A stretch of 64,000 nucleotides of DNA from the NCBI GenBank assembly GCA_947034885.2, contig OX344750.2:15246053-15310052 (forward strand), given 5' to 3'. Origin of the DNA: Thuidium tamariscinum. Lineage: Eukaryota; Streptophyta; Bryopsida; Hypnales; Thuidiaceae. The position numbers were made by a program, and so were the translations under genes. The notes under the pieces are model-generated. The model was not told the DNA's origin. It worked only from the letters and a program-made list of their open reading frames with translations, and did not search any database. Of the stretch, positions 11,561 to 63,185 are shown piece after piece (within the stretch, counting starts at the first letter, position 1; every line of letters starts with the position of its first letter).

Positions 11561-12612
11561 GTTGGCTCTTTGTTCAAAATAGAGAAAATTTGTAGAAGCC
11601 TAGAAAAGGCCTTCAGAATTTAGGGGTTAAGGGTCCAAGTAACTTCAATTTCTTCGCCATCTACATGTACCAATCTCAAACACTTCAACCAAAAACAAAT
11701 CCATCTATTTTTAGTAAGAATTATCTTAACCCCCAAAAGACTATAGAATTCACATAGTTTTTTTGAGAACTTAGGTAGACTCTATTGACCTTACAATTTT
11801 CATTCTAACTAATATTGCAAGATTTGTGAAGATTTTTTCAATTCTATTGTCAAATTTGGTACCAAAATGTATATTCCTAAAAAATTTAGACCTCAAAACT
11901 TTTAGCAACTTTCAAGGTATTTTTCATACTAATTTTGTAAATTACAAAGAATTGAAGCTCAAAGGGCAATGATTCATTTTTAGGCAACATTATATGAGTG
12001 ATCTTGTAGAAAGCCATGTCCTTATTATTCGTACAATGTTTGGTTTCAATCCAAATCATAGATTGCAAGATTATAACATAGAAGTGAAGGTTACTTCAAG
12101 AAAATCCATATTTTGGCATATCTAAAATTGTCCTTTCATTGTCTCTTTTTGGACACATAACATTTTAGAAAGTTGACATCTTAGGCTCAATCCCATGAGA
12201 ACTAACTTGCACATGCATGGAAACAAGTCTTGTATTTTTAGAACCAAAAATGAGTAAGAAGATAGTCTTATGTACAATACTACAATAGTAATCACTTCAT
12301 TGTTAAATTTAAGAAAAAAAGACAAACGAAAGATTTATGACAAATTTAGATTCAAAATTATAGATCAAACATAGTATAATGAAAGAACACAAGAAAAGAC
12401 ACACAACGGGAACAAAAAAATTTAAAAATAGCTCAAATTCAAATGCAAGATATATATTCTAGTGGTTGTCACTAGATACATATCAAGAAGAGGTGCAAAA
12501 ACACATGCATCCACCTCATTGGCCAAACTTCCCTATCCAATGATTCTTTTAATTTTTACCTTTAGGCCACCTATGCTTTGGAAATTTTTATAAATTCAAT
12601 AGTCAATCTTAT

Positions 12613-13751
12613 CCCCTAGAGGACCAATTCTATTTTTCTGTCAAAACTCTTTCAAAACTGCCATTTCTGTTGCATTCATCCAAGAAAACCAAATTTTCTT
12701 TAAAAAATCTAACCATAGAATCTTATACTTAACTTTACTAAGATCATGTGGTAAAAATTTCATAAAGTTTGACCTTTTAAATTAGAAGATATGAGCATTC
12801 AAAGTTGGAAATACAAGTTTTTTTAACCCTGAAGCGCTCCGACATCCATATTCTGGACGATGAATAGAGGCCTTCAAAGCACTGTTTCATCCAATTAACT
12901 TCTCATTTATCAAATGTAACACTTAAATCTAGAGAACACAACCTTCCTTAATGACCAAATTCATTAACTTCTGGAAAATGAAATATATGTACAAAGCTAT
13001 AAGTGAAAATGAGCAAAAAATCAAAAAAGGATTGAGACATTTCATGGTTAAACTATGGTCTGCAATTTTAGATGACTTTGACTGCCATTTGTAAAACAAA
13101 TTTGAATTGTAGAACTTGAATTTATAATTTTTTGTGTTAAGAAATTGAGTTGAGAGACTAAGAAAAAAAATTCAGACAAAAAACATGTTATTTTCATTCT
13201 TTAAAAAATTGTTAAGTAGACATATGTCTAAGATTGAAAGAAAAACTAAATGGTTAATAACTCTAAGGTGGGATTAAAATACAATAATTCCAATGGTGAG
13301 ATTGTTCTAGCAAGTAAACATAACCTTGTCCAATAATTTTTTTGAAAAATTGTGAAAATTGCATTCAAAAATAAATCCTATAAGTTATTTTTTCAAGAAG
13401 ATGTTTAGATTGCCCGAAAAACAAGACTATCTATAACTTTCTCATCATAAGTCCAAATAGAATGAATCAAATCTTTATGTAGGCAAAAATATATTATTTT
13501 AAAAAAAAAATTTAATTAAATTCTGAATTTTTGAAAAAAAAAATTCTGCCCGCTAAATGAAAATTTGGACTTTTTGTGGTATAACTTTTGCTCCTAGTTA
13601 CCAATTGAAATAAAATTACATTCCCACGAAGCTAATCAATTTTTCTATCTTGTGAGAAAGTTTCAAAAGGTTTCACCAAAAATTGAAGTCATAGGAACCT
13701 ACCCGAAATCCATTTTGTCCCCCGAGGAGAGAGAGAATGGTCTTTTAGAGG
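12613..13751 (-). mobile_element. CCCCTAAAGGACCA family element, copy A, with nested insertion
   Basis: The left terminus CCCCTAGAGGACCA and right terminus TGGTCTTTTAGAGG are degraded inverted repeats, flanked by TTAT (12609-12612) and TCAT (13752-13755). The interior aligns in reverse order with copies B and C, for example the block GGAACCTACCCGAAATCC next to the right end. It is about 220 bp longer than the others because of an insertion at 12827-13047. Confidence 0.75.
12827..13047. mobile_element. 221-bp TTAA-flanked insertion nested in copy A
   Basis: Copies B and D give the uninterrupted site, TTTTTTTAAC followed directly by the next conserved block. In copy A this is split by 221 bp with TTAA on both sides (12823-12826 and 13048-13051). 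The ends are CCCTGAAGCG and, read inward from the right, CCATGAAATG, a weak inverted repeat. TTAA duplication with CCC-starting ends is the hallmark of piggyBac-type transposons. The assignment is an inference. Confidence 0.6.
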
Positions 13752-15290: not shown

Positions 15291-17413
15291 AGAGATCTCT
15301 ATATCTTTTTTTTGTTCATTTAAAGATGATCTAAAAAAATTATACTTCAAAATCATGATGACTTGTAGCCATGGAAAATAAACTACAAATTTTGGAGAAC
15401 TTTTGACCATCCCCATTTCAACATATGTTTAAAGTATAGTCTAATAGAACAACTTTCATCAATCTTGTCAAAAGTCGCATGCTCTTAAAATTGTGTGATT
15501 TTGTCAATATTTTTTTTGATAGAAGAGCAATATAAGTCTTCTTTCATTTCAATGGTAGCAATCATTAAAATTATTTTACAAGAATGAGAAATCAAGCTTG
15601 TTACAAGAGCTAATCAAGAAAACTATAGCTATATTCCCACCCATCCCTCTAGTCCTTTAGGGGGTTAAAGTAGTACAATTGAAACTAACACACTAAGGAA
15701 AATGATGCTATAGTAGTTGCCTACATCTAGCTGCATCAATTGCGCACCATCAGAACATACTCTTGTTTTTTGGTGCTTTATTGGTTTAGGAGTACTAGCC
15801 TTGAGCTATGACTACTTTTTAATTTTATAACCATTCAATTAATTGTAAATCATCTAGATTTTTAACCTTAAAAAAATAATATAGCTGAAAAGTAATTGAT
15901 ACATGACTTCCTAGGTTGTTGTAGACATGAAGAATGCACCTATTGGTTAAAAATCAAATTATTGGTCATAGGCTAACGTCCCTCTATAGTTGACTTTGTA
16001 AAGACATTGTTTTTTGGTTTTCTTTTTAAAAAAAATGAAACAAAATTTCATTGCAAAGGGAAAAATACAAGGTCCAAAATACAGGTAGCCTATAGGAGGA
16101 CAACAATATGGACAAGGAAAATTTATTGAAAAATATTTCAAGATGTTTTACCTCCTCAAAATTCAATTTCAACCCTTAAATAGATGTAAGGACATTGTTG
16201 AGATGAAAGGTGTAATAGATGACTTCACTATTAATTGTAAAAACAAAGAATAAACCTATTGATCCAATAGTTGAAGTATTTTGGTGACTACCTTAGTCAT
16301 GGATCCATGTCTTTTTAGGATTAGCCCTAATTGATTAGTTGGTGAGTGTAGAAATCATCCCTTTTGGCATTGTTTAACATCATTTCCTTTGATCCTTTAC
16401 ATACTAAGAATTCATCAATTTTAGTTGCAAAGTTTGATTGATCATATCATAAAAAGTATAATCTTAATGAATTTTCCTTTACTACATCATTAGTTTGAGT
16501 GAAGAACTTTGTAAATTGATTTAAATATAATAATTATTAAACCTTGAACGAGATGGTGATTGTGGAAATTGTGAATTTTGATACCATAAGAATCGTTGGT
16601 TCAAAAAAATCCAAAAGCACTCTTTGGAAGTCAAAACACTTTAAAAGATCTTCTCTTTCCACCCCTAATTTCGAGGATGAATAGTTGTAGTTCTATCCTA
16701 CACAAAGAGATTCTCTCTCATTCATCAACTAGAAAATGGCCCCTACATCATTTATAGATTAAACTAAAATTTAAAAATCCCATAAAAACTATTCAAAATT
16801 GGTCAAAAATGTGAATCCCAATTTAGACTTTTTAGTACAGAAAGGGTTAACAAAACCAAAAGTGTTCATTAAAGGTCAAACTATTGTGCATGATCTCCCT
16901 TTCTTCTACAAAATTCTAAATTACACTTCTTTTGTTGCTAAAAAAATTCTTTATCATTTATTGGCCAAAAATGGCTACAACGTCATTTAATGTGATTTTT
17001 CTTCACTTTCTCTTCAAAAATTCTCATAAATTCAATTTTCCTCAAAAAATATTAAAATTTTCGAAAGTACAATTCTTCATTTTAGAAATATTGCACAAAA
17101 AAGGGGAGGTCATGAACAATAGTTTGGTCTCCAATGAATACTTTTGAAATTTTTTAAGTAGATGATTCATACTATTGCAAAAAAGATGATTTCTACAAAG
17201 ATTAGCCTGTTCTTACAGAATTATCTTTAATCCATGAAGGACTAGTCAAGCACTTTTTGGTTGATATTGACACTTTTTCATAGATAGCCAAAATTTTAGA
17301 ATGAATTCAAACATAGACAAAAGGGGATGGGTGTGGAGAATGGGGATTTTGAATGCATTGAAACAAGAATTACAATAATTAGTGCTAACAATTAGTTTTA
17401 GCAAGAAGACTAG

Positions 17414-18335
17414 CCCCTAAAGGACCATCACCCCCTCGGGGGACAAAATGGATTTTGGGTAGGTTCCTATAACTTCAATTTTTGGTGAAACCTTTTGAAA
17501 ATTTCTCTGAAGATAGAAAAACTGATTAGCTTCGTGAGAATGTAATTTTTATTTCAATTGGTAACTAGGAACAAAAGTTATACCACAGAAAGCCCAAATT
17601 TTCATTCAGCGGGCAGAATTTTTTTTGGTAAAAAGTCAAAATTTAATTTTTAAATTTTTTTTCTGAACTGATATATTTTTGCCTACATGTGAAGCTTTCA
17701 TTCATTCTATTTGTACTCATGTTGAGAAAGTTATAGACAATCTTCTTTTTTAAGTAATCTAAACAATTTCTTAAAAAAATAACTTTTAGGATTCATTTCT
17801 AAATGCAATTTTCACAATTTTTCAAAAAGAATTGTCAGACAAGGTTATGTTTACTTACTAGAAAAATCTCACCATTGGAATTAATGTATTTCAATCCCAT
17901 CTTAGAGTTATTAACCATTTAGTTTTTTTTTCAATCTTAGACCTACATCATTTTGACAATTTTATAAAGAATGAAAATCAAGTGTTTTTTGTGTGAATTT
18001 TTTTTTCTAGATTCTCAACTCAATTTTTTAACACAAAAAATTACAAATTCAAGGTCTGTGGTGCAAATTTTTATTTCAAATGCTAGTCAAAGTCATCTGA
18101 AATTGCAAACCATAGTTAAAAAAATTTATATTTCCAACTTCGAATGCTCATATCTTCCAATCTATGAAGTCAAACTTCATGAAATCTTTACCACATGATA
18201 TCAATCAAGTTAAGTACAAGATCCTTTGGTTAGATTCTTAAAAAAATATTTTTTTGTTTTTTTGGATGAATGCAACAAAAATGGTAGTTTTGCAAGGTTT
18301 TTGACAAAAAAAAAAAGGCCCTAATCCTTTAGGGG
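17414..18335 (+). mobile_element. CCCCTAAAGGACCA family element, copy B
   Basis: This is a 922-bp element with left terminus CCCCTAAAGGACCATCACCC and right terminus TAATCCTTTAGGGG. It is flanked on both sides by CTAG (17410-17413 and 18336-18339). Internal order matches copy C throughout, including TTAGCTTCGTGAGAATGTAA near the left and GGATGAATGCAACAAAAATG near the right. No open frame suggests a transposase, so it is non-autonomous. Confidence 0.85.
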
Positions 18336-18504
18336 CTAGGGGGTGAGAAACTAACAAAATGTGGGCTGAAAATACAAAAAATTTCCAACCAGAGAATCTT
18401 CAATTGTTAGAAAATTTATTATAGAGGCCAATTTTATTATTATAGTTAGATCTTCAAAATGCATCATAGTTTGGTATTTTTTTCCATATTTAGCTTAAGA
18501 CTAG

Positions 18505-25480: not shown

Positions 25481-25623
25481 CCCCTCACCGCACAGAAGGA
25501 ATCTAAAACTCAAAATCTACAACTTTTGTTTGTATCACGATTCCAAAATATTCTTCCAAATAGTACTTTATAATGATTTTTCTCAAATTGTCAATTTTGG
25601 AAATGATTCCAAGTGCTTAGGGG
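25481..25623. mobile_element. Small TTAA-flanked element with CCCCT ends
   Basis: This 143-bp insert lies between TTAA copies (25477-25480, 25624-25627). Including the flanks, TAGTTTAACCCCT and AGGGGTTAAACTA are perfect 13-bp inverted repeats. The ends share CCCCT with the larger 0.92-kb family, but the interior does not. Confidence 0.5.
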
Positions 25624-26026
25624 TTAAACTATAGTACCTACTTTAATTGGTGCCAATAACAATATTGGAAAAAACTAATAGAATAATATAATGTAATATA
25701 TGTGTGCTTGCAATGTTTATTCTTTTGTTGATGCTAACAAAATTCTGAAAAAAAATTAAAAAAATTAAAAAAAAAAATTGATATCTTTTACAATATAATC
25801 ACAGATGATTATTTAGAGCAATACAAAACTATGATATTAATATTAATATTTATATTTATAATATTTATAAATAATAATAAACAAGAAAATTGAAAAAATT
25901 ATATCATTGAATGTTTGACCTTGAAATGCATGAGAAGACATTTTGGTGTCCTTTAGATGATTTTTTAAAGGGCTTGTGAATAGAAAAATATAATTTTTCA
26001 ATCAGTTTTTTGAAGGGAGTGCTTAA

Positions 26027-26950
26027 CCCCTAAAGGACCAAGAGTCCCCTCGAGGGACTTTAAGAATCCGGGTTGGTACTTGTGACTTCAATTTTTAATG
26101 AATTTTCTTGAAATTTTCACATAAGATAGAAAAACTGATTAGCTCTGTGGGAATATTATTATTTTTTCAATTGGTGACCGAGAGCAAAAGTTATGCCATC
26201 TTAAACATAATTTTCATGTCGCCGGGCAGAAAAAAAAAACTACAAAAACTTCAAAATTAAAAAATTAATTTTTTTTTCTTATAGATTTTATTTTTGTCTA
26301 CAAGTGAAGCTTTGATTCATTCCATTTGGATTAGTAATGTGAAAGTTATGAACAATCTTGTTTTTCGGGCAATCTAAGCATCTTCTTGAAAAAATAACTT
26401 ATAGGATTCATTTGTGAATGCAATTTTCACAATTTAAAAAAAAAAATTGTTGGACAAGGTTGATTTTTCTTGCTAGGAAAATCTCACCATTGGGATTATT
26501 GTGTTTCAATTCCATCTATGAGATATTTGCAATTTAGTTTTTCTTTCAATCTTGGACCTACATCTACTTGACAATTTTTTAAAGAATGGAAAAAAAGTCT
26601 TTATTTTGTGAATTTTTTTTTCCTAAGCTCTTAGCTCAATTTATCAATAGAAAAAAATTTAAAATCAAGGTCTGTAGTGCAAAAAAATTACATAAATGGA
26701 GGACAAAGTCATTTGAAGTTGCAAACTAGAGTTTAAAAAAACTTTGTTTTCCAACTTTGAATGCTCATATCTTCCTATCTATACGGTCAAACTTCATGAA
26801 AGTTTCACCACATGATCTTAGTTAAGTATAGTACAAGATCGTATGGTTAGATTCTAAAAATTTAGTTTTTTTGTTTTTCATGGATGAATGGAGCAGAAAT
26901 GGCAGTTTTGAGTGGTTTTGGGTTGAAAAACGGCCATGGTCCTTTAGGGG
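26027..26950 (+). mobile_element. CCCCTAAAGGACCA family element, copy C (best preserved)
   Basis: This 924-bp element has perfect terminal inverted repeats: with the flank, TTAACCCCTAAAGGACCA at 26023-26040 is the exact reverse complement of TGGTCCTTTAGGGGTTAA at 26937-26954. TTAA on both sides is a 4-bp target duplication. The interior matches copy B from end to end. It is non-coding. The TTAA target and CCC ends suggest piggyBac-like insertion, but copy B has CTAG, so the superfamily is left open. Confidence 0.85.
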
Positions 26951-29104
26951 TTAAACCTAATTTCAATGAAAGATGTATTTTCTTTTCTTATAATAATTTT
27001 TTACTTTCCTTCATAAAAAAATGACAAATCTATAAATCCTGGTATTTTATAAGTAAATGATTTCTATTATTTTTCTCTAAATATGAATTTAAGCTATAAG
27101 AAGTATTTTTTTTAATAACATCAACTAAAAAAATGATGTTGTTAAAGTTGGTATTTACTCTAATTTGAAAATTTCCTAAACTTGAATATTTTATTGAAAT
27201 TTGAACTTGAAATATTTCACCATACTTAGACATATATGCTTCTATTTCGAAATGATTGTTTTTTTAATTTTGATATATGTTTTTGCATCATTATAGTGTA
27301 CTACATTATAATATACATATAAAAAATCAATTTTAGAACATTTATAATTTGAAGTTTCTAATCAAATTAATCTCTCATTGAAAAATTCTTCATTGCACCA
27401 ATAATGAAGTCTAATGTTATATCTCCCTCTAATTCTCATTAGTTGACAATGTTATTTATCCTATTATATAGCTACCTCTAATTCTCAATAGTTGACAATT
27501 ATTGTTCAAGTTGGACACTGGTTTAGTACAAAGTGAACCATCTTGGTTCTAATTTAGCTTTTTAGATAGAAATTTAGATGATGATCAATATTCATGTTGA
27601 CATTTAGTACTAGTAATATTACCAACATTTGATACCATTTAGCATTAGAGTTCATAATTAATGTTACAAACACAATATTGTACCAATTCCACCCCATATA
27701 CTACATATAGAATAAAAATCCAATAATATTTGGAGTTGATGTCAATGATCTTCTCAAATTCTATAGCCAAGCATTTGGGTTCTATACTTGAATCATGTCA
27801 ATATGGCAAATTGGCAACTTGTTCCCACAAAGTCAATGAGATTAGAAGTACCGTAATTAGTCTCCCCAAATACTAATGCACAATAACTGAACATATATCC
27901 CGTTAGATATCATAGCATCTTGAATTGGCATAATAACCAACTCCATCAATACTGAAGTGCTTCCTCGATTCCCTTGCATGTTCCAACCAATGTAAACCCC
28001 CTTACAATCATGAGAAAATATTGCAAGCGGCATCAAAGTAATAATGAAAAATTACTGTGAAATTCCGTTACCTTTGTGTCAAAAAGAAAAAGAAAAAATT
28101 ACTGAGAAATAAACCAGGGACCAAAATCCAAGTAGTAAGGTAATGAAACCAGCGACTTGAGGAAGGTCAAACAACTTCCAATATTCTCTCAGATGTGTTC
28201 GACAAATCATTATTGCATCACTTTTGGGGGACGGTCAAATGCAAGACTGCCAACCAGTCCGTCAGATGCGCTTTACCAAAAATTTAATGCCTGCTGTTCC
28301 AATAAACATGAACTTACATAAAGTCTACTTATTGAGCTGCAAAAATGAGGAATCATTACTCCATAGATAAAAGCCATTGGCGAGTATCTGCACAAATTAG
28401 GCATACGCTTCAGGGAAGTTGGTGAACAATTGGTGAGAATGAAGAGCAGAAAAACAATCGACGGGTACGTTAGGTGGTGGACGATCCAAAAAGTGGGTAC
28501 AAAATATTAAATGTCATTTCATCAAGCAGAATTGGTACATTATACCAAGTCCACAAAAAAATTCACGAGCACACTACGAATGCACTCGGAATGAAATAAG
28601 TTCCAAATTGTGGCAGACTGTAGCATGAAAATAGAGAGTGGTGATTAGGGTACCTCAAGGAGTGCACACACGGAGGTCACTGAAGTAGTCTGGTTTCCTC
28701 CGAAACCCCATATTGAGACCCTGCTTTGAGCTATGTTCACCTTGAATCAGTGTTGAAATCTACGTAACTTGTATGTACCTACAGGGTGCCACACTATTCT
28801 TTTGTACATACAACAATGTGGACCTCATATTCGAATCCACAGCCAGTACAACAAGAAGAGGGCCCATTAACAGCTAGGAAACTATCGAAACAAAAAAACT
28901 CAATACGGCTGCTGCTGACTTGATTCATTTACTGCTACTTAAACCCAAATTGTGCAAATGGTGCTCCCAATCAGCGGTCCGACTAGCAGAAGCCTTCTCA
29001 CAACCTCATTGTAGGAGCTCTAGACATCTCTCCACTAGAGCACCTATCTGTGCTGTCCAAGACATCAACCAGTAAGGGTCAAGTCGACAGATCCATGTCG
29101 TGAG

Positions 29105-36947: not shown

Positions 36948-37188
36948 TACTACAAGAGAAAGGGATATTTTAAGTATAGTCCTAGGGATATGGCAAAAAA
37001 AAAGTATAGTCCTAGAAATAAGATTTTAAGCAATGACCTTTTAGTAGATTTTCAATAAGAAATACGTGTCTAATTGGTAAAATTTTACTAAAAAGACACA
37101 TATTTCTTATTGAAAATCTCCTAAAAAGGTCATTACTTAAAATCTTATCTCTAGGACTATACCTAAAACACCTCTTTCTCTTGTAGTG
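36948..37188. mobile_element. CACTA-type MITE
   Basis: This 241-bp element has terminal repeats (C/T)ACTACAAGAGAAAG and CTTTCTCTTGTAGTG, flanked by a 3-bp TTT duplication (36945-36947, 37189-37191). CACTACAAGA ends and a 3-bp target duplication are typical of the CACTA superfamily. The whole element folds into a near-perfect hairpin, with arms of about 110 bp around TTGGTAAAATTTTACT. The left terminal C has mutated to T. Confidence 0.85.
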
Positions 37189-44570: not shown

Positions 44571-45770
44571 CTACAAAAAACCATGGCCAATAATCTATCA
44601 AAACTCACTTAAAATTTCCATTTCTACTGCAATCAACCATTAATAAAAAAAATTTTAAGACCTAAATATAGGATTTTGTACTTTACTTGTCTAAGGTAAC
44701 ATAATAATAACTTCAAGAAGTTTGACCACACAGATTGGAAGATATTAGCATTCGAAGTTAGAAATTAAAAGTTTTTTTTTAACACTAGCCTACAGTATTA
44801 TAAGACTTTGATTGCCATTTGGCAAACATTTTTGCACTATAGACTTTAAATTTCTTAAAAATAGGGTGAAGAATTGCATTGAAGCTTTAAGATAAAGTTT
44901 CAAATAAAAACATTTGATTTTCCTTTGTTAGAAAATTGTTAAGTAAAAGTAGAACCTAGATTGAAAAAAAAAACCTTCATTATTAATAGCTTTGAGATGC
45001 ATTGAAATACAATGATTCCAACAACAACATTGTTTTAGCAAGCAAATTTTTATTTTGTCAAATATTTATTTTGAAAAATTGTAAAAATTGCATTCAAAGA
45101 TGATAACTCATAAGAGGTTTTTTTGGGGTATTGAGAGACTGCTTTAGCCTCATTCTCTATTTTGTGAACCAGCTAATGTTGGTCAGAATAAAAAAATATT
45201 AAGAAAAATATTTTAAAAAATAAAAAATAAAATTTATAAAAAATATTTATTTATTTAATAAAATATTATTATTTGATGGGGCATTCTCTGTGCCACATCA
45301 GACTAGCTGCTGGGACAGTTTTCAGCAAGTTCCCACAGTCCGGGAACTCACAGTCTCCCAACATGGTAAGAAAACCTCTTATGATTAATTATGTTTTCAA
45401 GAAGATGCTTAAGGTGCCCAAAAAACAAGATTGCCTATAACTTTTACATCACAAATCAAAATGGAATGAATCAAAATTTTGCAAATAGAAAATATGATCC
45501 ATAAGAAAAAAATCTTTAAAATATAATTTCAAATTTTTGTGGATTTTTCTTTCTACCTAGCAACATAAAAATTATATTTAACAAGGCATAATTTTTCCTC
45601 TTAGGCACTAATTGAAATAAAAATTGTATTCCTATGAAAATATGAAGCCATTAAGTTATTCTATCTTACAAGATTTTTTTTTTAATCCACCAAAAATTGA
45701 GATCATAAGAACGTGCCTAGAATCCATTTTTAATTATCATTTGTTAGGACAATATTTGGTTCTTTAGGGG
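44571..45770 (-). mobile_element. CCCCTAAAGGACCA family element, copy D, with nested element
   Basis: TTAA lies on both sides (44567-44570, 45771-45774). The right terminus TGGTTCTTTAGGGG is well kept and the left terminus (CTACAAAAAACCATGGCC) is decayed. The interior runs opposite to copies B and C. Extra length is due mainly to an insertion at about 45110-45385. Confidence 0.7.
45110..45385. mobile_element. GGGAAC-family element nested in copy D
   Basis: CATAAGAGGTTTTTTT at the left and AAGAAAACCTCTTATG at the right are inverted repeats. The interior contains GTGCCACATCAGACTAGCTG, CTGGGACAGTTTTCAGC and CAGTCCGGGAACTCACAGTC, matching the GGGACTG/GGGAAC family. It interrupts an otherwise collinear part of copy D. 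Confidence 0.65.
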
Positions 45771-50658: not shown

Positions 50659-53600
50659 GTAATTGTTGTGTTGTGTTTTATTTTACTTGTTATTTGTTAT
50701 ATAGTATTTATTGCTCCACTTTTGTGGTTGGACATTGAAAAAAATGTTGCTATTGGAATCTATGGAATATTGGTATTTCTTTCATACTTGTTTTGTAATT
50801 TATACTATGTATATTTGAAAAATATTTGATATACTATACAATCATAGTAAATTTAGTATATGCATAGCATTCAAATTATAATATTAGATGGAATGTATTA
50901 CAACATATTTTTTAAAATTATAATTAAATGATGATTTATTTAGAATTAAAAAATATTTAGAATTTACAATATCAATGTGAGTATTTTATTTGATACAGAT
51001 TTTAGTAATTGTATTGTTGTTTCTACGCTTCATTAATATAGACCCATCAGATCCAAAAATAATAAAATTGCAACAAAATTTTATTAGAGAACAACAACCA
51101 TCATTTATTGACCATAATTGGAGCATATGTTATTTATATGCAAATTGTTGCTATCCACAAGATTGTAATTTATTTGATAAAAAAAATCATCAACCAATTG
51201 TTGAAGAAGAAATGATGTTTTGTACAGTTTGCAAAGCTGAGGTGACATTCTAAAATATTAAAAATGTTTCATTAGAAAATAATAAGTCTTTTCTACAAAT
51301 ATTTAATAAATAAAGGACAAAATTTCACAATTGAAGTATCTTATGTGAAATTATATTTTATCACATATACATTTGGATATCAATAGAATTTTAATACAAA
51401 ATGAAAAATATGTGTAACATTGAAATTTTTTAATAAGTTTAATATTTCATTCATAAACTCCTAAAATTTCATTGATCCTAAAAGAATTCAATGGATTTTG
51501 TTAGGTTCTTATGAACAAAAATTTTGGTGAAACTTTTTGAATTTTTTCAATAATATAAATAAATTTATTAGCTCTTCTAGAATATAATTCTTAATTTAGT
51601 TGGTACTCAAGACCAAAAATTATAATATAATAAACCCCAATTTGAAATTGGAAGGCAACAAAAAAAAAATCTTCAAAAATTTGAAATGAAAATTTAAAAT
51701 TTTATTCCTATTAAATTGTATTCTTTTCTATATGGAAAGATTCAATTCATTCCATTTGAATTTGCAACATCTTAGTCTAAACCACCTTGTTTTGTGAGCA
51801 ATTAAAGCATCTTTTTGAAAAAATAATGTATAGAATTGCTTTTGGACTCAATATTTACATTATTTTAGAATAATAATTTCACAAGGTTAATATTGATTGT
51901 TAGAAAAATATCACTTTTGGGATTAGTGTGTCCCAATTCTATCTAATCTCACATCTATTTCTACTTTATCATTTCTTAAGAATGACAATCATGCTATTTT
52001 TTATTTTTTATTTTTCAAAACTTTCTTGAACTCAATTCTTCATGACAAACTTACAATTGAGATGTTTCAAAATATGTAGTGCAATAGTTTTTAGGTAAGA
52101 TGATTCAAAGTCTTGTAAACTAGTTTGTCATGGTGCCAAAAATCATATTTTCTCTACTTTGAATGCATTTATCTTGCAATCTATGTAGTGAAAATTTCTA
52201 AAATGTCTTCTTTGCATTTTTTTACTAGTTTATTGCCAAAAAAATGTCATTTTTAGATTTTTTTTTCACTCTTTGCACCAAAAATGGCAGATTTTTATGG
52301 ATTTTGGCAAAAAAAAAACACCTTGAAACTTTAGGACTTTGTTTTTTGACACACAAATATTAATATGTAATATTTTATTATTGTAATCTATAGTTATACT
52401 CAACTATTGTTTTTTCGTATTCATATATACTTCATTATTGAAAATTTGTAGTAATTTAATGAAGTTGTAATGTTGCATCTAAGAACTTTCATTAATGTAT
52501 AAATATTCAATTAAAACTACTCTTCATGCCTTATATTAAATCTAAACTTGAATTGGCAACAATTTGCTATAATCTAGAACAACTACCCTAAACCTAAAGT
52601 TTTCTAGTTGTTATAATCAAAGTTTTGTGCGCTTTCCTTGTTGCAATGTGTTCAAAAACTATTCTTAAGGTTCCTAAATGCCCAAGGTACCAAGTCTTAG
52701 TATCAACAAAACCTTACCAAACTACTCGTTTTTCTACTTTGTATTTTAGAAGAAATTATTATGAGTTCTAGTTTGAGCATGATTTCTAACATGTCTTAAA
52801 TTGTTTACACTTACAATTCCAAATGATTTGATAATTTTTATGAAAATGCTAACATTAGAATAAATATGTATTTGCCTCAATAAAATCTATTTGATGTGTT
52901 TGTTGAGGCAAACGCAAAAACAACGTTGAAAAAACGCAAAAAATCACAGATTTTGCATTTACCTCAACAAACACATCAAGTAGATTTTGTTGAGGCAAAT
53001 GTAGATTTCTTTATAATTGTTGTTTCAATTTAGAGAAAACTTCAAGAATTTTTTTTTATCTACGTTTAAAGTAAAGAAAACAAATCTATTTGTACATTAT
53101 GGGACTAGATTATTTTACTTTGAACCTTCTTCACATAAATTTTTTGTACTACAAACTTTTGAGATTGAAATCTTTGTTGTGGAAAATTTAGTTGAGAATC
53201 TAGGAAAAAAATGAAGTCAAAAAAACTTAATTTTAATTCTTAAAAAGATTATTAAGTGTAAGTAGGTGCAAGATAGAAGGAAAATCTCATTTATTAATAT
53301 GTCTAAGATGAAATTAAAATGCATTGATTACAATGGTTCAATTTTTCCAACAAGAAAACTAAGCCATGGATTTTTTTTTAATGCAAAAATGGCATTTAAA
53401 AATGAATTCTAGAAGTTATTATTTCAAAAATATCTATAGATTGCCCAAATAACAAGATTGTCTATAACTTTTACAGAACTTATTGAAATGAAATTAATCA
53501 AAGCATTTCTTATAGGCAAAAAATATAATCTACAAGAAAAAAATTCAAAATTTTGAATTTTTGTTTTGACCAATCTCCCATATTTAGAGTTTATTTTGGC

Positions 53601-56600
53601 ATAAACTCTTGTTTCTAGGCACCAATTGAAAAATATATATTCCACCAAAGCTAATCAATTTTTCAATCTCCAAAAAATGTTTCAAGAAATCATAACAAAA
53701 ATTGAAACTATAGATAGTTGTGTCAATGGTCCTTTGAAGGTTAAATAAAATTGAAATAATAACTTAAAAAATCTTTGATGATCAATGATATTTATTTTAA
53801 ATTCTATAATTAGATCTACATTATAAATTCACCTTTTGAATTTAATACTTTACTACCTTGAAAACAATTGTCAAATTTTTTTTAAATCAAAAAATTTAGA
53901 AAATGTAAAACAATCAAAAGGATATAAGGAAAATGATTTATTAATTTTTATTCCACAATTTAATCTACAAAAAAATTTGACAACTAATGATTGTATTTAT
54001 AATCTTTTTGTCTTTACTTTTTTGAAGTCAAGAAATAAAATTTAACAACCATATATTTAATATGTTCAAATATTCTTTTTAGAATGAATTTTTTTTCATA
54101 ATGCATTAAATAATGAGATGTTTAAGAAAAATAATTTGAAAGAATGTAACACTTTATTTTATAATTCAGAAATTAAATGACAACATATTTCTCAGGTTAG
54201 AAAGTTAAGTAAGCATTGTAAAGCTTGTGATAAGTGCATTGAAGGATTTGATCACCATTGTTGGGTAGGATTTTCTACAAGTCAACCTAATATTTCATAA
54301 ATACTTTGCTTTAATTTTATCAATACTTTATAGAAATAAATTGTAAATACTAATTCTACCATTGGTAATCAAAATCTTGTTGTAAATAAATGAAGTAAAA
54401 TTAATGGTTTATTTTATTTAAAATATATTTATTTTTAAACATAGTGGTTGAGCAGGTGCATTGGTAAAAGAAATTACAACACATTTTTTACAATGTTAGC
54501 AACTCTTTTTGCAATTGTAAGAATAAAGACTTGTCATTTTTTAAATTATAAGCAAACAATTTGATATTTTTATGATGGTAACTAGAAGATTCATTTTTTT
54601 AATATTAAAATCCAAGGATATCACTCCTTATAATTTAAGGTATATACTTGAGTTAAAAAGGTACTTCATGTGGAGCTACTCACTTTAACTATTGCATTTA
54701 AGATGACAATATTTTTACATAAAATGCTACGGAGGTATATTTCAGTACCATTTGTGTTCTTTTTTAGATTTTTTCTTGTAGTTTTTAAAGGGGGATATCT
54801 TACATTAAATTTAACCCCTAAACACCCAAATTGAGTCTTTTTGGCAACATAGAAGTTTTGGGTAGTTTACTACAAATGGAGATTTTTTTGAAATTTCTTT
54901 GAAATTTTCACACAATATGTGCTCAAGGCAGGGTTTTCTACCCGGACAGCGCGACAGACAAATGTCATGTGACGTCTAGTAGAGCCCTCGCGACGTCCAA
55001 TAGTGTCAACATCATAAAAAAATTTAAAAAAATCATTAGAAATTTAAATTTTTGACATATTTAAGTTCGGTTTCAATTAAGTGTTTTAGTTTCATGATTA
55101 CATATTACATTTTATATTTAGATTCATAGTTATAGTAAGATTTTCATTTTTTTGAGTTGCTGAAAATGGACTTTCGTGACAAGGTGCGACACCCTTCGTA
55201 ACAAGTTGTCACCGTGACACGCGACGTCAGACGTCCTACACGACACCCAAACCCAAAAATATGTCTGACAAGACAACCCTGGCTCAAGGAGTAGCTTGAA
55301 GGCTCAACAATTTTAATAACTTTTGACTACATATTGAAAAAATTATTTTGCTGCAATTTTTGGAATTTTTGAGCATGTAATATACCATAGGGAAATTATT
55401 TTCAATACCTTTCCTATGAGGTATATTACATACCTCAAAACTCTATAAAATTGTAGTGAAAAATTACAAAAGAAGTTGATTGTCTACTATGCTCACATGC
55501 ACATACTAGAAAAAAAGTGTGTTGGAGGCCTCCAAAACGTGTCAAAAACTGCGTTGGAAGCTACACAACACATCATATGAATTCTGTTGAGTTCCATGTT
55601 TTTTACACAACATTCTGTAGACAATTATGCTAGACTGCATTTCTACGTTAGAATTCTATAGAACTCTAACTCAAAAATGCAATCCAATGTAGATGTCTAT
55701 AGAATGTTGAGTTGAAAACGTGGAACTCAACAAAATCCATATGATGTGTTGTGTAGCTTGCAATGTAGTTTTTGACACGTTTTGGGGGCTTCCAACACAC
55801 TTTTCTTCTAGTACAAAACCGTGACAAAAAGAATTGCACTCAATTTTGACTATGGTTTTTTTTACCATGTTTTGTTATAGTGCATACATATGTATAAGAT
55901 ATACAACCTAAAACCAATAACAATCAAATCAATTCAATTCAAGTGCCATTGATTAAGTGGTGGTTTTTAATAACAAGTTTACCATTACAAACATCAGAAT
56001 CCCCATTGAAACTATCTCATGAATATTTTGTTCAATATGAATGTGCTTAAGACATATGGCTTCAAATATTGAAGTTCAAAGGACCATAATCTTCATCACA
56101 ATGTTGTACAATTTTCAATTTGTTGATCCCCTTGACGTAAACCTTCCTATTCATGCAACATAATAACTTTTGCCACAAAGCCTTATTTACTAGATTGGGA
56201 CAATATGACCATTTTGAAACTTTGGAAACAAGAGTGCCAAACTTGATTGAACAAATGGTTGTTGAATCTAAAGATAAATAGAATCTACTTTACAACAAGT
56301 GTAGCACTTGTAGTCAATGCCTTACATATACACTTAATTTTTTGATCTATACACTTCTAGTACCAATTTCAATCAACTATTTTTAGTCACAGATTTTTTA
56401 ATATTCAATTTGCTTTATAAACTACACAAAATTATTTTCCTATATCAATTCTCATTGTGCTATGAAAAATTTGCTCAATTAATATCTATCAAGGCTAATT
56501 TATTAATAAAATTTCCTACTACATGATGTTTTTATATAGCTTCACTTATCTATATCAAAATATATAAGATTTCATGGACCCTATAAAATTTCTGCATATT

Positions 56601-60091: not shown

Positions 60092-60733
60092 CCCCAAAAA
60101 TATCATTGTCCCTTTGAGGCACTAATTGGATTTTAGTCAAAAATACATAGTCTCAATTTTTGTCAAGATTTTTTGAAACTTTTTTGAGGATTAAAAAAAT
60201 GATTAACTTCACGGGAATATAAATTACTTTTTTCCAATTGGTTTTTAGGAACCAAAAATATGTCCAAATAAGCTCAAAATTTAGGCAACGAAAATATATT
60301 TAAAAGTTATGAATTTAAAAAAATAAAAATTCTCCTGGACTTTGTTTTTGTCTACATGGAAAGATTTGGTTATTTTCCTTTGATAAGATATGTAGGAATT
60401 ATGGACAATCTTGTTTTTGGGGCAACCAAAGCATTTTTTGTAAAAATAACTTGTAGAATTCACTTATGAATACAATTTTTATGACTTAAGAAAATCAAAT
60501 TCCACATGATTTAGTTTGCTTGCTATAAGAATTTCACCATTGGCATTAGTGTATTTAAACTCCATCTTAGAGATGTTAATAATTTAGATTTTCCTTTTAT
60601 CTCATATCTACTTCTCCTTAACAATATTTTTAAGAATGAAACTTAACTTTTATTGAATCAATTTTTTTCCTAGACTCTCAATTCAATTTCCCACTAAAAG
60701 GATTTAAAGCTCAAACCTTTATAGTGCAATAAA
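60092..60733 (+). mobile_element. CCCCTAAAGGACCA family element, copy G (truncated)
   Basis: It starts TTTACCCCAAAAATATC. Interior blocks (TCTCAATTTTTGTCAAG, ATGATTAACTTCACGGGAAT, GGACAATCTTGTTTTTGGGG, TTTCACCATTGGCATTAGTG) match the first two thirds of copy C. The right third and terminus are missing; the sequence changes at about 60733. Confidence 0.65.
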
Positions 60734-62059: not shown

Positions 62060-63185
62060 TCAAATACATTTCTTTTGAGCAACCAAAGCAAGGCTTATTT
62101 TAGAGTTATTACAAATTACTTACATATTATAAATTACTTGTGAATCCATGCGTCAATCCAAGTGATTTTATATTTTTTTCAAGAATTTTTGGAATTACTT
62201 ATAAATTTTTACAAGTTACAAATTACTTATTACTTATGAATCCATGCCTCAACACAACAGATCTTATATTTTTTTCAAGCATTGTTTTGAATTACTTATA
62301 AATTCTTTTATAAATTACTTACAGATTACAAATTATTTACAAAATCCATACTTTGACCCAACTCATTTTATATTTTTTCAAGCTTTTTAAAAAGAAAGTT
62401 CTTAAATTTTTTTGGAAATTTCTTGTGAATCCATGCCTCAACCCAACTGATTGTATATTTTTTCAAGCATTTTTTTGAATTGATTATTAAGTTTTACAAA
62501 TTACTTACAAATCATGAATTACTTGTGAATCCATGCCTCAATCCAACCGAATTTGTAATTTTCAAGTATTTCTATTATTATTTATAAATTTTTACAAATT
62601 ACGAGTTACTTATGAATCCATGCCTTGTCCCAACTAATTTTATATTTCTTCAAGCATTTCTTTTGAATTGTTTATAAATCCATGCCTCAACCAAACTAAT
62701 TATATATTTTTTCAAGTGTTTTTTGATTCACTTATAAATTTTTACAAATTACTTACAAATCCATGCCTTAATCCAACTGATTTTATATTTTTTTCAAGCA
62801 TTATTTTGAATTACTTATAAAAAATTTACAAATTACTTACAAATTACAAATTACTTACAAATCCATGCCTCCAACCACTTGATTTTATATTTTTTGAGTA
62901 TTTCTTTTGAATTACTTATAAATTTTTCCAAATCACATACAAATTATGAATCACTTGTAAATCCATGCCTCAATTCAACTAATTTTATGTTTTTCAGGCA
63001 TTTTTTTGAATTTTTTACAAAGTTTTACAAATTACTTACAAATTATGAATTACTTATGATTCCATGCCTCAACCCTTATGATTTTATATTTTTTCAAACA
63101 TTTCATTTGAATTACTTATAAATTTTTTTACAAATGAGTGACAAACTAAAAATTACTTAGGAATCCATGCCACATGAGGTCCCAT
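62060..63185. repeat. Minisatellite, about 12 units of 65-105 bp
   Basis: AATCCATGCCTCAACCCAAC-like anchors recur about every 65-105 bp (near 62145, 62238, 62345, 62431, 62528, 62613, 62677, 62759, 62860, 62959, 63060 and 63160). They are linked by GATTTTATATTTTTTCAAGC, ATTACTTATAAATTTTTACA and short TACAAATTACTTA sub-repeats that vary in number. Units drift in sequence and length, with no open frame. Confidence 0.9.

Follow-up and report, generated by a model that had tools for sequence, protein, structure and literature searches.

Transposons of the piggyBac superfamily are best known from animals, and Sola3 is a further superfamily that is specific for TTAA. The piggyBac transposase corresponds to Pfam family PF13843, and footprint-free excision counts among the marks of the superfamily. 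In the excerpt of PMC2872659, piggyBac elements are described by TTAA target sites, terminal inverted repeats (TIRs) of 12-19 bp and a CC[C/T]T end, and excerpts from the piggyBac literature add subterminal asymmetric repeats of 19 bp. Kolobok elements also duplicate TTAA, with ends given as 5'-RR...YY-3' in the excerpt of PMC9587614. As far as the excerpts go, plants enter the piggyBac literature only where hosts or superfamilies are listed, or where the system was introduced into them.

The locus compared here lies in a window of 64 kb, i.e., the whole stretch of DNA analysed, and belongs to a plant-like genome of 363 Mb in 19 contigs. It holds an element with ends CCCCTAAAGG, of the form CCCC...GGGG, and TIRs of 14 bp. 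An initial annotation had pointed to its piggyBac-like look, and the TTAA flanks, CCC ends and 14-bp TIRs bear this out. Judged by the titles and excerpts returned, none of the matches listed in a literature search by title describes the present TTAA family, and a text search of the literature with the opening 10 bases of the TIR gave no transposon title among the matches listed.

Results

Within the window, blastn with positions 26023-26954 (copy C and its flanking TTAA) as the query recovered all seven places at which a dispersed family had been annotated, with E values from 4e-47 to 0. The six further copies are 68-79% identical to copy C per matching piece. Matches on the minus strand extend over 12609-13730 (two pieces), 44580-45632 (two pieces) and 53136-53706, those on the plus strand over 17411-18338, 51519-51945 and 60330-60733, besides the query itself at 26023-26954. 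The features of the seven copies are as follows.

26027-26950, plus strand: copy C, intact, 924 bp (blastn, TIR search, flank reading)
26023-26026, no strand: left TTAA target duplication of copy C (flank reading)
26951-26954, no strand: right TTAA target duplication of copy C (flank reading)
26027-26040, plus strand: 5' terminal inverted repeat of copy C, CCCCTAAAGGACCA (14-mer search)
26937-26950, minus strand: 3' terminal inverted repeat of copy C, perfect (14-mer search)
12613-13751, minus strand: copy A, 914 bp without its nested insert; flanks ATGA/ATAA in element sense
12827-13047, no strand: 221-bp insert nested in copy A; TTAA/TTAA flanks; ends CCCTGAA.../CCATGAA...
17414-18335, plus strand: copy B, full length; flanks CTAG/CTAG
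44571-45770, minus strand: copy D; flanks TTAA/TTAA; 3' TIR decayed; a nested insert adds to its length
51458-52336, plus strand: copy E; decayed ends; no clear duplication; ends approximate, by eye
53136-53740, minus strand: copy F; 5' end with TTAA; 3' part missing
60092-60733, plus strand: copy G; decayed but present 5' end; 3' part missing

In an alignment of the seven copies, A, B and D run the full length of the element, the ends of E are decayed and F and G are without the 3' part. The nested insert of copy D is absent from the other six copies, and the 221-bp insert of copy A is absent at the same place from B, C, D and E. This 221-bp element has imperfect ends, CCCTGAAGCGCTCC and CCATGAAATGTCTC, of the CC...GG type, and relatives of it occur in two of the genomic loci described below (89% identity in L011; 93% over 84 bases in L040). 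Inverted and direct repeat pairs place copies A and B closer to one another than to C. The perfect TIRs of copy C with TTAA on both sides, and the CTAG words on both sides of copy B, were as first annotated; the 5' TIR of copy B is perfect and its 3' TIR has 2 mismatches, while the ATGA/ATAA flanks of copy A differ by one mismatch. Allowing up to 3 mismatches, the 14-mer TIR occurs 15 times in the window, where 2.9 occurrences are expected, and none of 100 shuffles reached 15.

A search of the genome with copy C gave 6583 candidates in a loose first look, a figure that is no copy number. Scoring of the best 40 of these yielded, besides copy C itself at 100%, at least 39 further copies that are full-length or nearly so and 95-97% identical to C; each of the 40 matches covers all 924 bases or lacks just the first. 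For the 40 loci (L001-L040, L001 being the place of copy C), the reading included 1.5 kb of flank, and an extra element at L011:160-1083, with 78% identity to the consensus, brings the elements read with flanks to 41. Thirty aligned copies lie 0.65-3.25% from the consensus and differ pairwise by 2.6% on average, values that are biased to young copies as these are the best matches to C. The consensus, the L011:160 element and copy B measure 922-924 bp and copy A 914 bp without its insert, yet they are about 21-23% apart.

The family had been annotated as non-coding and about 0.92 kb long when intact. This agrees with the 924 bp of copy C and with a consensus that has a single open frame reaching 50 aa, one of 52 aa. 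Together with the TIRs and the many copies, the lack of coding capacity is a trait of MITEs, or non-autonomous elements. Beyond 34.3 kb the window contains no open frame of at least 110 aa, and hence no single-exon transposase of such size is located there. The 40 loci contain 15 open frames of 120 aa or longer, and Pfam searches with 10 of these found no transposase; in the window (10 of 28 open frames), Pfam matches include a bZIP protein, a protein kinase, an LRR protein and DUF7086. The bZIP protein presumably resembles plant HY5, and we take the kinase to be similar to plant MAP kinases. At L030:952-3498, frames of 144-242 aa without Pfam match flank an element copy, as if a gene had been interrupted.

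At gathering scores, Rfam matched nothing in the window, nor did it on 26000-27000 at E 0.1. Long foldbacks with 85-95% complementarity occur at 52859-53011, 55504-55813 and 36949-37187 of the window, and weak Rfam matches to microRNA families, below gathering score, overlap them; these are probably mere foldback repeats. An array of tandem units, each about 100 bp long, also lies at 62074-63171 of the window.

TIR arms were compared in 42 sequences (the 40 loci, L011:160 and copy B). GGCCCA was present at both ends in 20 and GGACCA at both ends in 16, two loci were mixed and the remaining four were single cases. At TIR base 11, the same variant is found on both arms in 36 of the 40 loci L001-L040, as if both had changed together. 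Directly after the 5' TIR, a palindrome of the CCCCTCGGGGG type is present in the consensus, in L011:160 and in B, partly in A and not in D. It was the only subterminal feature noticed by eye, and repeats like the 19-bp subterminal ones of piggyBac were not among what was noticed.

A table of flanks from the loci read across the genome, of the kind that the initial annotation had proposed, gave matching 4-bp words, with TTAA/TTAA in 39 of the 41 elements of C type or near. TTAA makes up 0.94% of window positions. The two exceptions, L014 (TAAA/TTAA) and L016 (GTAA/TTAA), each show a one-sided change. As TTAA is its own reverse complement, flanks alone cannot tell a duplication from a longer element end. 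We hence took the 40 loci together with copies A to D of the window, joined the two flanks of each around one 4-bp word (44 queries, with L001 and C being the same place), and aligned the products to the locus and window DNA. Junction-spanning matches to empty sites were obtained for six of the 44 queries. Five of these (L037, L009, L011, L022 and L010) are gapless at the site against at least one un-inserted relative; L008 has a gap beside the site in both matches, and L037 against L036 has a gap in the site. The relatives are 68-85% identical, the matches of L010 being short (59-64 columns), and they carry a single word at the junction, namely TTAA for L037, L010 and L022, and a one-base variant for L009, L011 and some others. 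Identity between left and right flank extends to 5 bp in only one of the 40 loci, ruling out a longer duplication. From the one TTAA-like word in un-inserted relatives and the rarity of 5-bp identity it follows that the duplication is 4 bp and that the element starts at CCCC. The claim that the flanking 4 bp are a target duplication thus holds: for C-type copies, TTAA is the 4-bp target duplication and CCCC the true element end.

A pair scan over 216,991 bases covered exact CCC...GGG ends with up to 3 TIR mismatches and identical 4-bp flanks of any sequence. For the present family it returned 38 pairs with TTAA and one with CTAG (copy B). L001 was left out as a duplicate of C, and L014, L016, L039, A and D fall outside these settings, the three loci through unequal flanks or a changed last base. 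All ten other pairs had TTAA, some of them joining ends of neighbouring elements.

Five separate further elements with TTAA flanks and CCC ends were found at L002:152-890, L005:2426-3227, L014:2565-3526, L023:1091-1496 and L040:2870-3096, with a CCCT start in those of L014 and L040. By eye, the 739-bp L002 element is one long inverted repeat with ends CCCCTAAATGCCTA, and the 962-bp L014 element has CCCTAG ends and repeated internal units. In the window, 143 bp between TTAA words at 25481-25623 have CCCC...GGGG ends.

Discussion

Judged by their ends and target, the elements probably form a new family of young non-autonomous DNA transposons of the known piggyBac type. The TTAA duplication of 4 bp is present in 39 of 41 elements, with copies A and B differing, and the TIR length of 14 bp lies within the 12-19 bp of piggyBac. 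Of the CC[C/T]T motif, the first three bases fit and the fourth is C. A transposase made elsewhere would bind the 14-bp ends and perhaps also, directly within the 5' end, the palindrome of CCCCTCGGGGG type. The element would then be excised and joined to a TTAA site, and repair of the 4-base staggered cut would leave TTAA on both sides. We infer this cut-and-paste sequence, and a piggyBac-superfamily transposase acting in trans, from the observed ends and 4-bp duplication, the TTAA at nearly all C-type copies read, the low divergence and the want of a sizeable frame in the consensus.

The initial annotation had taken the CTAG flanks of copy B as a hint of an unusual superfamily. For the C type this suggestion is weakened, as TTAA flanks 39 of 41 elements, empty sites are TTAA-like and all ten other pairs have TTAA; CTAG as a regular target of C-type copies is ruled out by the first of these counts. 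What stands is that the A/B subfamily is off TTAA in both known copies, although these two come from the window and C-type copies were sampled genome-wide. Non-canonical insertion or mutation of the site may explain copies A and B. A different explanation would be an undescribed superfamily that has CCC ends and targets NTAN words in a relaxed way, with TTAA favoured; this would accommodate B at CTAG/CTAG and A at ATGA/ATAA, the two being mutually nearest, as well as the C instead of T at the fourth TIR base. The TTAA flanks of the C-type or near elements, of the other CCC...GGG pairs and of copy D speak against such a relaxed target, and the flanks of old copies may have mutated; we regard this explanation as unlikely.

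Still less probable is that the driver belongs to a TTAA-specific superfamily other than piggyBac, i.e., Kolobok or Sola3. Kolobok shares the TTAA duplication and is recorded in chlorophytes and rhodophytes in the excerpt of PMC9587614, but the same excerpt requires 5'-RR and YY-3' ends, and with CCCC...GGGG we have set Kolobok membership aside. It would be most surprising if the element had longer inverted ends TTAACCCC...GGGGTTAA that include TTAA, and the true duplication were TA or none. TTAA at nearly all copies read and the agreement of both TIR arms in 36 of 40 loci would suit such ends, yet the junction reads as a single TTAA-like word in un-inserted relatives, and copy A, with ATGA/ATAA, is more in keeping with a direct than with an inverted repeat. 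The junction alignments rule out a TA-only duplication with longer ends.

Beyond the piggyBac-type assignment, we may speculate, with a small though appreciable chance of being right, that a land plant harbours an entire community of CCC-ended elements specific for TTAA, 0.23-0.96 kb long in those read, which expanded recently. Its driver would be either a piggyBac-type lineage undocumented in plants or a new TTAA-preferring superfamily with an A/B subfamily that tolerates CTAG and ATAA. Given many young TTAA elements, a plant-like genome would be a good place to search for a native plant piggyBac transposase, which would be relevant to how genomes evolve and useful as a tool for seamless insertion.

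Among known systems, Kolobok (excerpt of PMC9587614) has the TTAA duplication in common with the present family and differs by RR...YY versus CC...GG ends. The piggyBac element IFP2 and the bee piggyBac elements, in the excerpt of PMC10140906, are alike in TTAA and in TIRs of about 14 bp; the bee elements encode a transposase of about 580 aa, in contrast to the present consensus with no frame above 52 aa. The coral CMITEs, piggyBac/TTAA MITEs in the excerpt of PMC2872659, share the TTAA duplication, the non-coding nature and the short TIRs, and the piggyBac elements tabulated there also have a CCC start. Compared with the CMITEs, the present family, with no autonomous partner among the elements read, is set apart by its length of 0.92 kb, its plant-like genome, CCCC instead of CC[C/T]T and the 5' palindrome.
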